Positions 14,084 through 16,966 of a stretch of DNA of 64,000 nucleotides are shown in pieces. Positions within the stretch are counted from its first letter, which is position 1. Each line of letters begins with the position of its first letter. The notes under the pieces were generated by a model. That model had not been told where the DNA came from. It was given only the letters and a program-made list of their open reading frames with translations, and did no database searches. Both the position numbers and the translations under genes were made by a program. Source of the stretch: Candidatus Sulfotelmatobacter sp. (GTDB lineage: Bacteria; Acidobacteriota; Terriglobia; Terriglobales; Acidobacteriaceae); NCBI GenBank assembly GCA_030041475.1, contig JASHNU010000051.1, forward strand, positions 1-64,000, given 5' to 3'.

Positions 14084-14379
14084 GAGAAGTGCTTAAATTT
14101 TCAACGAACTGGCAATGCCCTGTCCGCCCAAAAAGGAACGCCTCGGTTACCATGGTTTTCCCTAAAAGACTCAATTACTTACAGCTCTGTTGCCCCCCGA
14201 TGGGGCAAGTCTGGGACAGGTTGTCCTGTCCGGCGGGCGCTGCGACAAAGTGGCCTCTTTGTAAGGCCGCAGCCTTCCCTAAGTTGCTGATAAATAAGGC
14301 CAGTACCTGTCCCATTTTGGAATTGGAGGTGCAAGCTGGACTGCGGTTATTCACTGTGGGGCGACCTTCTGGGGGATTC

Positions 14380-16110
14380 ATGAAGAAAGTTGTGCTCTTA
14401 CTGCTGATTGCGATGGTCACGGTGGCCTATGCCTCCGATACAAACAAACTGTCGCCGGACCTGCAGGCCTCGACGGCAAAAAACGTGCAGGTGGTCGTGC
14501 AGTACAACAGCGCGCCCAGTGTTTTGGATCTCAATCTGCTCGCGACCTTGGGCTCGATCCTGAATTCACTGCCGCTGGTGAATGCCGTGGTCGCGGACCT
14601 GCCGCTGGCGAATGCTCTCTCCCTCTCGAACCAGACGGACGTGAAATACATCAGCCTTGACCGCCCGCTGGCTCCCACACTCAGCAACGCTGCGCCGGCA
14701 GTGAACGCTCCCTATGCATGGGCGACCGGCTACACCGGCGCAGGAGTGGGCGTGGCGCTGATTGACAGCGGTGTGGCCAGCCATCCAGACCTGGATGGCG
14801 GTTTGCTCGGACTGTCGCGTGTGGTCTGGAGCCAGAGCTTCGTTCCGGGCAATGCCAGCGCGAATGATCAGTACGGGCACGGCACGCATGTCGCTGGCTT
14901 GATCGCCGGCGACGGGGCGAGCTCCACGGGATCGCAATACACGCGCACATTGAAGGGCATTGCGCCGCAGGCCAGCATAATTAACCTGCGCGTGCTGGAT
15001 CAGAATGGCGCCGGCACCGACAGCGCCGTGATCGCGGCGATCAATGAAGCCATAACGCTCAAACCGCTGTTCAATATCCGCGTCATCAATTTGTCGCTCG
15101 GACGCGCCATCTACGAGACCTACACGCTCGATCCCCTCTGCCAGGCGGTGGAAGCCGCGTGGAAGCAAGGCATCGTGGTAGTCGTGGCGGCCGGCAACAA
15201 TGGCCGCTATCTGTCGACCGACGGCTATGCAACGATCACTGCGCCGGGCAACGATCCTTACGTCATTACCGTCGGCGCGATGAAGCCGATGGGAACCCCG
15301 ACGCGCGTGGATGACCTGATGGCCAGCTACAGCTCGAAGGGGCCAACGGCCATCGACGCCATCGCGAAGCCTGATCTTGTCGCTCCGGGCAATCTTCTGG
15401 TTTCGCTCAATGCGCCGAATTCCACGCTGTACAACGCGTATCCCGGCAACCAGGTGCCGTACAGCTACTACGTGAACGGCGGCAGCAGCGCTCCGTCTTC
15501 CAGCTATTTCACGTTGAGCGGAACCAGCATGGCGACAGGCGTGGTCAGCGGCGTGGTGGCCGATCTGCTCCAGAAGTCGCCGAGCCTGACTCCTGACCAG
15601 GTGAAAGCGCGGCTGATGAAGACGGCGTGGAAGTCGCTTCCGGCCTACAGCAGCGTGACTGATCCCACCACCGGCATCACCTACACCGACCAGGACGACG
15701 TGTTTACAGTGGGCGCCGGCTACATTGACGTTGAGGCCGCCATGGGCAATACCGATCTGGCGCGGGGCACGGCTATGTCGCCGGTGGCAACGTCCAACGG
15801 CACGTCGGATACGGTGACGCTGAATGCGAGTTCGTCGGCAGTGTGGAATGCGTCCTCTACCTGGTCGTACCCGGTGGTTTGGGGCATGCAACAATTTGTG
15901 ACCGGCACGACCGCAGCGGGTTCGTCAGGCACCACGAGCAGCGGCCCAACTGGCGCCAGCAATGCTCTGTGGGGCTCGAACGCTCTGTGGGGCAGCAACG
16001 CGCTCTGGGGATCCAACGCGTTGTGGGGCTCGAACGCTTTATGGGGATCGAATGCCTTGTGGGGCAGCAATGCTCTGTGGGGATCGAACGTTTCCGGTGG
16101 TGAGCAGTAA
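14380..16110 (+). CDS. Secreted subtilisin-like (S8) serine protease with NALWGS tail
   Basis: A 576-residue exported subtilase. The signal peptide is MKKVVLLLLIAMVTVAYA, followed by an inhibitor-like propeptide (about 25-105). The catalytic triad is Asp129 (ALIDSGV), His167 (HGTHVAG) and Ser383 (GTSMATG), with the oxyanion Asn in AAGNNG. Residues from about 528 are seven perfect NALWGS hexapeptides and a short SGGEQ end. ATG 14380 follows GGGGG and gives a clean signal peptide; the frame upstream to 14089 is not credible. A strong terminator follows. It probably digests extracellular protein. The role of the tail is unknown. Confidence 0.93.
   Translation: MKKVVLLLLIAMVTVAYASDTNKLSPDLQASTAKNVQVVVQYNSAPSVLDLNLLATLGSILNSLPLVNAVVADLPLANALSLSNQTDVKYISLDRPLAPTLSNAAPAVNAPYAWATGYTGAGVGVALIDSGVASHPDLDGGLLGLSRVVWSQSFVPGNASANDQYGHGTHVAGLIAGDGASSTGSQYTRTLKGIAPQASIINLRVLDQNGAGTDSAVIAAINEAITLKPLFNIRVINLSLGRAIYETYTLDPLCQAVEAAWKQGIVVVVAAGNNGRYLSTDGYATITAPGNDPYVITVGAMKPMGTPTRVDDLMASYSSKGPTAIDAIAKPDLVAPGNLLVSLNAPNSTLYNAYPGNQVPYSYYVNGGSSAPSSSYFTLSGTSMATGVVSGVVADLLQKSPSLTPDQVKARLMKTAWKSLPAYSSVTDPTTGITYTDQDDVFTVGAGYIDVEAAMGNTDLARGTAMSPVATSNGTSDTVTLNASSSAVWNASSTWSYPVVWGMQQFVTGTTAAGSSGTTSSGPTGASNALWGSNALWGSNALWGSNALWGSNALWGSNALWGSNALWGSNVSGGEQ
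15961..16086 (+). repeat. Seven in-frame 18-bp repeats encoding NALWGS
   Basis: Seven consecutive 18-base units each encode Asn-Ala-Leu-Trp-Gly-Ser, with synonymous variation among Ser (TCG/AGC/TCC), Ala (GCT/GCG/GCC) and Leu codons. The DNA has drifted while the peptide has not, which suggests selection on the protein sequence. Confidence 0.95.
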
Positions 16111-16237: not shown

Positions 16238-16966
16238 CTAGTGCGCGGCCGCAACCTTGCGCAGCGCAGCCTGCAATTCCTCCGGATGGAATCCGAAGGG
16301 GCCGGCTTGGCTCTTGTAGGCAATGCGCCCGGATGCATCGATCAGGTAGAGGCGATCTGGCCAGGCCGTGTACGCGCTCTCCGTCGAGTTGCCGAATTCG
16401 TCCAGCACGGCCGGAATTTCGATTCCCAACTTACGCACGCACGTGCCGGCGACGAACTCACGTTCCTGCTCGTCGCGCGGGCTGGCGAAGACCACGTTGT
16501 CTTTGATGTTGCTCTGCATCTGCCAGACGTCACTGGGGTGGGCTTCGGTGATGTAGACGACCAGGAACGCAACCTGATTTCGATATTGCTCGTACAGCTT
16601 GTTGAGAGCGGGAACCTCCCGCCGGAAGGGTGGTCAGGTGTAGCTGCCGAAGACCAGAACAACCGGCTTGGCTTGCGCGGTGAGCGTTGACAGCTGAATC
16701 TGGCTGGAGTGGTCGAGTCTGGCGAGGGTAAAGTCAGGGGCGCGATCGCCAATGTTGAGGTTGCCTGCCCGTGCTCTCACCCAGAGCGTTTCAAAGGGGA
16801 AAGCGAGGAACGCGACGGGAGCTGGAATCTTGGCCATCACGCGGCCAAACTGCTCCGGCGGACGCCGCATGACGGAGTAGATTGCAGCGCAAGCGCACAG
16901 CCAGAGGGCGGCGAGTGCGCAAAGCGACGCGAGAAATTTATTACGTAGAGATTTTGATAACGCCAT
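16238..16966 (-). CDS. Iodothyronine-deiodinase-like selenoprotein (UGA read as Sec)
   Basis: Two open stretches in one frame (16966-16637 and 16633-16238) are separated only by TGA 16636-16634. Reading it as selenocysteine gives a continuous 242-residue protein with Sec111. Residues about 10-30 are a membrane anchor (FLASLCALAALWLCACAAIY), followed by GDRAPDFTLARLD, typical of the thioredoxin fold. The active site reads VVLVFGSYT-Sec-PPFRREVPALN, then FLVVYITEAHPSDVW; this matches the FGSxT-Sec-PPF and YIEEAHxSDGW signatures of deiodinases. The C-terminus (WPDRLYLIDASGRIAYKSQA, then GPFGFHPEELQAAL) also follows that family. A hairpin fitting a bacterial SECIS follows the TGA. It is probably a membrane-tethered thiol or peroxide redox enzyme; iodothyronine as substrate is not implied. 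Confidence 0.88.
16607..16636 (-). promoter_or_regulatory. Putative bacterial SECIS element after the UGA codon
   Basis: On the coding strand the UGA (16636-16634) is followed, 11 bases later, by the perfect 6-bp stem GCGGGA/TCCCGC (16608-16622), extended by one G-U pair. The apical loop GGU begins 18 bases after the UGA. Known bacterial SECIS elements place a loop with an early G about 16-37 bases after UGA, so position and loop both fit. Confidence 0.75.

Follow-up and report, generated by a model that had tools for sequence, protein, structure and literature searches.

A deiodinase-family gene with an in-frame TGA, very probably encoding a selenoprotein, in an acidobacterial genome and its relatives across Acidobacteriota

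We analyzed a 64,000-nucleotide stretch of acidobacterial DNA (hereafter the window) and found on its minus strand a gene that very probably encodes a bacterial selenoprotein of the deiodinase family (Pfam T4_deiodinase, PF00837), with the in-frame UGA at codon 111 decoded as selenocysteine (Sec). This reading is carried by computational results on the family, the position of the Sec codon, the decoding machinery, a SECIS-like hairpin and conservation; expression of the gene is presumed from the sequence. Bacterial Sec-containing deiodinase-like proteins have been known since 2005, and the window protein belongs to this known kind. What is added here is the conservation of the SECIS-like element, the spread of the genes in Acidobacteriota and their grouping with animal deiodinases (DIOs). 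Genes for selenoproteins that carry the animal deiodinase motif TUPPF are found repeatedly across the phylum, including in cultivable named strains, which makes two matters testable: the role of deiodinase-type active sites in bacteria not expected to have thyroid hormone, and a possible descent of animal deiodinases from this bacterial subfamily. The features of the gene are as follows.

16238 to 16966, minus strand: gene of 242 codons and a stop for a deiodinase-like selenoprotein, the TGA at codon 111 being very probably read as Sec
16868 to 16954, minus strand: N-terminal hydrophobic helix (residues 5-33), a membrane anchor predicted from the model and hydrophobicity; charges in relatives suggest N-in, C-out
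16241 to 16768, minus strand: thioredoxin-fold deiodinase-like domain (residues 67-242), from profile, model and fold matches
16634 to 16636, minus strand: in-frame TGA at residue 111, the very probable Sec codon, which aligns with the Sec position of mouse DIO3
16608 to 16622, minus strand: bacterial SECIS-like hairpin with a 6-bp stem and a GGU apical loop (16614-16616), the first loop base lying 18 nt after the UGA
16535 to 16555, minus strand: YITEAHP motif (residues 138-144), in which Tyr138, Glu141 and His143 correspond to Tyr197, Glu200 and His202 of DIO3

The minus strand of 16238-16966 translates as MALSKS...KVAAAH* with a single TGA at residue 111 (16636-16634), and the context of this residue is FGSYT-U-PPFRREVPALN, then VYITEAHPSDVW. 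A preliminary description, made from the letters of the window, had reported these residues and two reading frames joining in one phase across the TGA, and the re-read sequence was the same in both respects. It had also recognized the active-site signature of iodothyronine deiodinases with the TGA at the catalytic position. When the joined halves were compared with PF00837, the read-through protein scored 117.6 bits against a cut-off of 27; residues 68-237 matched positions 71-235 of the 237 in the profile. The preliminary description had seen the family continue in the C-terminal half. The nearest solved sequences were mouse DIO3 (E = 1.9e-23) and DIO2 (E = 4.9e-21). Residue 111 aligned with residue 170 of DIO3, the Sec position, which is Cys in the crystallised mutant. 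A profile search of the whole genome (4.63 Mb in 112 contigs, 99.56% complete) returned the window gene as the sole PF00837 match at E <= 0.001, and none of the 14 control genomes had a match. A chance resemblance is excluded by these results and by the conservation of the TGA described below.

The AlphaFold2 model, built from 42 window and locus sequences (mean pLDDT 93.5, pTM 0.88), was closest in fold to the deiodinases: mouse DIO2 (Z 21.3, rmsd 2.9, 173 residues aligned) and DIO3 (Z 21.2, rmsd 2.5, 170 aligned) ranked at the top of the PDB matches, and Foldseek likewise placed them first and second. The other 48 fold matches listed had Z scores of 16.1-19.4, among them a Bacteroides disulfide-isomerase-like protein (19.4), ResA (17.9-18.6) and wild-type AhpE (17.8-18.0). 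The membrane anchor that the preliminary description had placed before the thioredoxin-like fold appeared in the model as a long helix of residues 5-33 with a hydrophobic core of 19 residues, and is a prediction. The positive-inside rule predicts orientation from flanking charges. In 79 of the 81 proteins, the mean charge beside the anchor was +3.6 on the N-side and +0.6 on the C-side, the N-side being higher in 73, equal in 6 and lower in 0; the catalytic domain thus probably faces the periplasm. As the difference in the window protein itself is slight (+3 versus +2), this call of topology leans on the relatives. The product would be a membrane-anchored thioredoxin-fold enzyme with its domain toward the periplasm.

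To compare the active sites, we mapped 98 Sec proteins, selected as such (Sec in 98/98), onto DIO3. The Ser/Thr/Sec/Tyr/Glu/His network of iodothyronine deiodinases was present in the aligned sequences: Thr169, Pro171, Tyr197, Glu200 and His202 were kept in all 98, Ser167 in 97, Arg225 in 96 and Trp207 in 93. Mutants of DIO3 at Glu200, Tyr197 or Thr169 are described as inactive in the accessible parts of the literature on these roles (PMC7506546, PMC11592359). At other positions DIO3 residues were replaced. Cys168 was Tyr in 88 of the 98 proteins (Cys in 2), and Cys239 was Phe or Ile in 80; His219 was Pro in 93, Arg275 was Pro or Ala in 90, Tyr257 was Trp in 92, and Asp211 was Lys or Arg in 84, the loop alignment being uncertain at this last position. 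An independent pairwise alignment of the window protein agreed at Cys168, Cys239, His219 and Arg275; His219 and Arg275, hormone-binding positions of DIO3 (PMC7506546), correspond to Pro163 and Ala221 here. Altogether, the alignments suggest that the catalytic part has been kept and the recognition part changed relative to DIO3. The term 'deiodinase-like' in the preliminary description holds for family and fold and does not extend to deiodination itself; several hormone-binding positions of DIO3 are replaced.

By analogy with the animal deiodinases, the selenolate of Sec111 would be held by Ser108 and Thr110 together with the network of Tyr138, Glu141 and His143, and would attack a soft electrophile. 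In DIO1, glutathione can regenerate the enzyme only with the help of the proximal Cys, a position occupied by Ala in DIO2, according to the accessible text of PMC9141512. The window protein has Tyr at this position (Cys168 of DIO3), and another thiol would therefore have to regenerate Sec111, namely an external one or Cys176, a residue that corresponds to neither cysteine of DIO3; a partner in a UxxC motif is absent. With about even confidence, we favour deiodinase-type chemistry, that is, reductive removal of a halogen from a non-thyroid substrate; any assignment of that substrate is conjecture.

Two alternatives compete with dehalogenation and leave Sec decoding and family membership untouched. 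The first, to which we give somewhat less than an even chance, is that the selenoprotein is a peroxiredoxin-like or ResA/CcmG-like thiol redox enzyme. The read-through protein scored above the respective cut-offs for AhpC-TSA (45.6 bits) and Redoxin (41.5 bits), and ResA, CcmG and AhpE share its thioredoxin fold, with the Z scores of ResA and AhpE given above. In ResA and CcmG, too, an N-terminal anchor precedes the fold. Profile and fold matches of the ResA/CcmG/AhpE type nevertheless score lower than those of the deiodinases, the active site contains neither CxxC nor UxxC, and the deiodinase network of Ser, Thr, Tyr, Glu and His is nearly invariant. A redox role had been proposed for bacterial deiodinase-like proteins in 2005, in the part of that paper available (PMC1088965).

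The second alternative, an iodothyronine deiodinase in the strict sense, with thyroid hormones as substrates, is very improbable, even though the catalytic network is the same as in DIO3. The residues His219, Arg275, Tyr257 and, with the uncertainty of its alignment, Asp211 are replaced in most of the 98 relatives, as detailed above. In simulations, Arg275 and Tyr257 hold the carboxylate of the hormone, as described in accessible parts of PMC7506546 and PMC11592359. The loss of Arg275 weighs little, because this residue is not conserved among the animal isoforms. In DIO1, the Arg lies one residue before its place in DIO3 (both statements from the accessible text of PMC7506546). At that earlier position (274), Lys or Arg was found in 68 of the 98 relatives, which speaks for this alternative; the window protein has Gln. 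According to the portion of the 2005 paper available, thyroid hormones are not expected in these bacteria (PMC1088965).

The favoured reading of a Sec-decoding deiodinase-family gene draws on the conservation of the TGA. A search of named species genomes yielded 540 relatives, and in the best 80 of the 540, which were kept, TGA occupied the same codon in 80/80. All 80 came from records titled Acidobacteria or groups and genera that we take to be acidobacterial, in agreement with the origin guessed in the preliminary description. Named strains with a TGA-type gene include Occallatibacter savannae AB23, Edaphobacter lichenicola X5P2 and Acidicapsa dinghuensis 4GSKX. In comparisons of the window gene with 8 hand-picked relatives, dN/dS was 0.08-0.12 after the TGA in 8/8 pairs and 0.115-0.21 before it in 7/8 pairs (dS was saturated in the eighth), values that are rough since dS exceeded 1 in all 8 pairs. 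Judged from these ratios, purifying selection acts on both halves of the gene, before as well as after the TGA.

A hairpin with G in its apical loop was found directly downstream of the UGA by sequence and folding. In the window gene it reads GCGGGA-GGU-UCCCGC and spans nt 15-29, with the U of UGA as nt 1. Taken alone it is unexceptional (z from 0.01 to -0.46; 6th percentile of its own synonymous shuffles), and it is the comparison across relatives that makes the case for a SECIS-like element. Across 100 Sec genes, the mean energy of the hairpin was -11.45 kcal/mol versus -5.40 kcal/mol for synonymous shuffles, with 65/100 in their own best 5%. The corresponding values were -10.30 versus -5.11 (11/21 in the best 5%) for the 21 Sec rows of the phylum set, and -4.44 versus -4.04 (0/9) for the 9 non-Sec homologs with Cys or Thr. 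Codons +5 to +8 were nearly frozen at the synonymous level in 91 UPPFRR genes (Arg CGG 88/91, Glu GAG 82/82, Val GTT 77/85, Pro CCC or CCT 85/85). At other places in these genes the choice was freer: the Glu codon at +30 was GAA in 49 and GAG in 42, and the Val codon at +26 was GTT in 15/84. Among 88 rows in the register of the window hairpin (64 distinct), the five inner pairs of the stem were formed in 86-88 and the outermost in 73. In a set of 89 rows in this register, the apical loop was GGT in 83, GGC in 5 and otherwise in 1, an N-masked row. In 15 chosen rows, 5/6 pairs had changed on both sides and 0/500 shuffles reached as high a count, although the rows were picked for this register and relatedness can inflate such counts.

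The position of the hairpin shifts among genes. The GGU or GGC loop lies at nt 21-23 in most Sec rows, four-base GGUC loops occur in loci L024-L027, and the loop lies at nt 25-27 in L036 (by folding) and in L029 and L033 (by eye only); the last three failed the energy test because that test fixes the position of the loop. RNAalifold, applied to ungapped rows, found no common structure in the 21 Sec or the 9 non-Sec rows, and we put the result for the Sec rows down to the shifting register. A scan of 1301 bases against Rfam gave 6 matches, all below gathering scores, so that the hairpin lacks support from a family model. We propose that the GGU hairpin would direct SelB and tRNA-Sec(UCA) to decode UGA111 as selenocysteine.

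The machinery for such decoding was detected in the same 99.56% complete genome, as a bacterial selenoprotein, proposed in the preliminary description, would demand. selA scored 561 bits (cut-off, 268), selB 350 bits (cut-off, 242) and selD 360 bits over two stretches (cut-off, 125); among the 14 control genomes, 1, 2 and 2 were above the cut-offs for selA, selB and selD, respectively. The tRNA-Sec model gave 15 matches, 4 of them above the gathering score. The best (66.5 bits) was called by ARAGORN as tRNA-SeC with the anticodon tca, and seven other candidates fetched from the 15 were tRNAs for Arg, Leu, Ser or Gly. selD itself has an in-frame TGA (KAAG-TGA-ASKL). About 3 kb from selD, on the same contig (C112), a formate dehydrogenase alpha-like gene with a match below the cut-off of the Fdh-alpha model has another (ARV-TGA-HGPTV). 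Together with the window gene, at least three genes with an in-frame TGA are thus present in this genome. That the TGA is a real stop, i.e., that the locus consists of two separate ORFs, is a pseudogene or contains a sequencing error, accords with a plain ORF list, which splits the gene at the TGA into pieces of 120 and 93 aa, and has practically no chance of being correct given the same-codon TGA in all 80 kept relatives, the selection on both halves, the nearly frozen hairpin codons and the complete Sec machinery; a pseudogene or frameshift is rejected on the first three of these. The preliminary description had argued against a frameshift or sequencing error. The locus exemplifies a gene cut in two at the TGA by plain ORF calling.

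In the phylum at large, PF00837 matched at E <= 0.001 in 38 of 396 genomes and above the cut-off in 30. We extracted 30 PF00837 loci from the 51 matches listed, and the catalytic codon was TGA in 21, Cys in 8 and Thr in 1; UGA therefore stands where homologs have Cys. TGA-type genes were found in 23 of the 396 sampled genomes, representing 15 family codes, with the position of the TGA within the gene checked in 21 of the 23 (all except G218 and G234). selA was above the cut-off in 21 of these 23 genomes versus 250 of the 396 overall (hypergeometric p = 0.002). The two remaining TGA-type genomes are G314 (88% complete), with no selA match at all, and G341 (97% complete), with a weak match below the cut-off. 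The PF00837 gene of G341 (L036) loses the C-terminus of the family, which may stem from an assembly error or from degeneration once Sec decoding had been lost. The genomes G218, G234 and G314, all of family f62, have 6, 4 and 3 PF00837 matches, respectively, some with an internal TGA and, in G218 and G234, some without; this lineage seems to hold an expanded set. The locus with Thr at the catalytic position (FGSSTTTNF; L052, genome G338) has neither Sec nor Cys there.

The relationship to animal deiodinases was examined in a tree of 41 rows, comprising the phylum loci, 11 of the 80 loci from named genomes, a protein of Mycolicibacterium, and mouse DIO2 and DIO3. A branch with support of 100/99 joined mouse DIO2 and DIO3 to 26 Sec rows from Acidobacteriota and to the Cys row L039; on its other side, 8 non-Sec rows were mixed with 4 Sec rows. 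Branching inside the tree was weak, the mouse branch long (1.86) and the root arbitrary. As only one row besides mouse came from outside Acidobacteriota, the tree cannot tell which bacteria are nearest to animals. The grouping supports a subfamily shared by the acidobacterial Sec proteins and mouse DIOs, and does not imply an origin. With mouse DIO2 (9h48) and DIO3 (4tr3), the window protein has in common the T-U-PPF and EAHPSD motifs, the thioredoxin fold (Z about 21), the Ser, Thr, Sec, Tyr, Glu, His and Trp residues, and the side of the strongly supported branch. In contrast to the animal proteins, its SECIS-like hairpin lies within the coding region, Cys168, Cys239, His219 and Arg275 of DIO3 are replaced, and, judged from charges, its catalytic domain is probably periplasmic. 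It is conceivable, albeit improbable, that the acidobacterial UPPF proteins are periplasm-facing, membrane-anchored selenium dehalogenases acting on halogenated soil organics and at the same time the ancestors of animal deiodinases.

Deiodinase-like bacterial proteins with Sec and with Cys, accompanied by a bacterial SECIS, were described from the Sargasso Sea in 2005, as far as the accessible text goes (PMC1088965). In the accessible part of the table of the 2008 GOS survey, the row for deiodinase-like proteins carries the numbers 22, 12 and 21, of which we read 22 as Sec and 21 as Cys sequences; the table gives no UxxC motif for the family (PMC2398784). The family is listed with the motif UxxC in the available portions of reviews of 2022 and 2026. 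Going by the descriptions available rather than by sequence, these marine metagenomic proteins and the window protein are alike in belonging to PF00837, in having Sec at the active site and in the existence of Cys homologs; the window protein is UPPF. A 2006 survey credits Acidobacteria with 3 selenoprotein families and 4 selenoproteins and lacks the word deiodinase. A 2025 paper puts the known selenoprotein genes of the acidobacterium Occallatibacter riparius at three, and the word deiodinase is absent from its main text. Our search of main texts, in a collection with few subscription journals, found no literature on acidobacterial deiodinase-like members.

Relatives of the gene were also sought in mobile elements and its neighbourhood compared among genomes. 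Viral contigs gave 20 pattern matches, none of them a relative, and no relative was found in phage records; plasmid records contained four distant homologs, among them those of Mycolicibacterium (Cys at the catalytic position) and Geobacillus. The neighbours of the window gene that recurred most often were DUF2207 (9 of the 80 loci), LemA (8) and a VWA gene (7); many of the loci end at contig ends. As this comparison covered only the neighbours of the window gene, set against the 80 loci, a partner gene may yet exist. The adjoining subtilase gene (14089-16110) has at its 3' end (15957-16090, plus strand) an imperfect 18-base tandem array of about 7 copies, which encodes SNALWG units.
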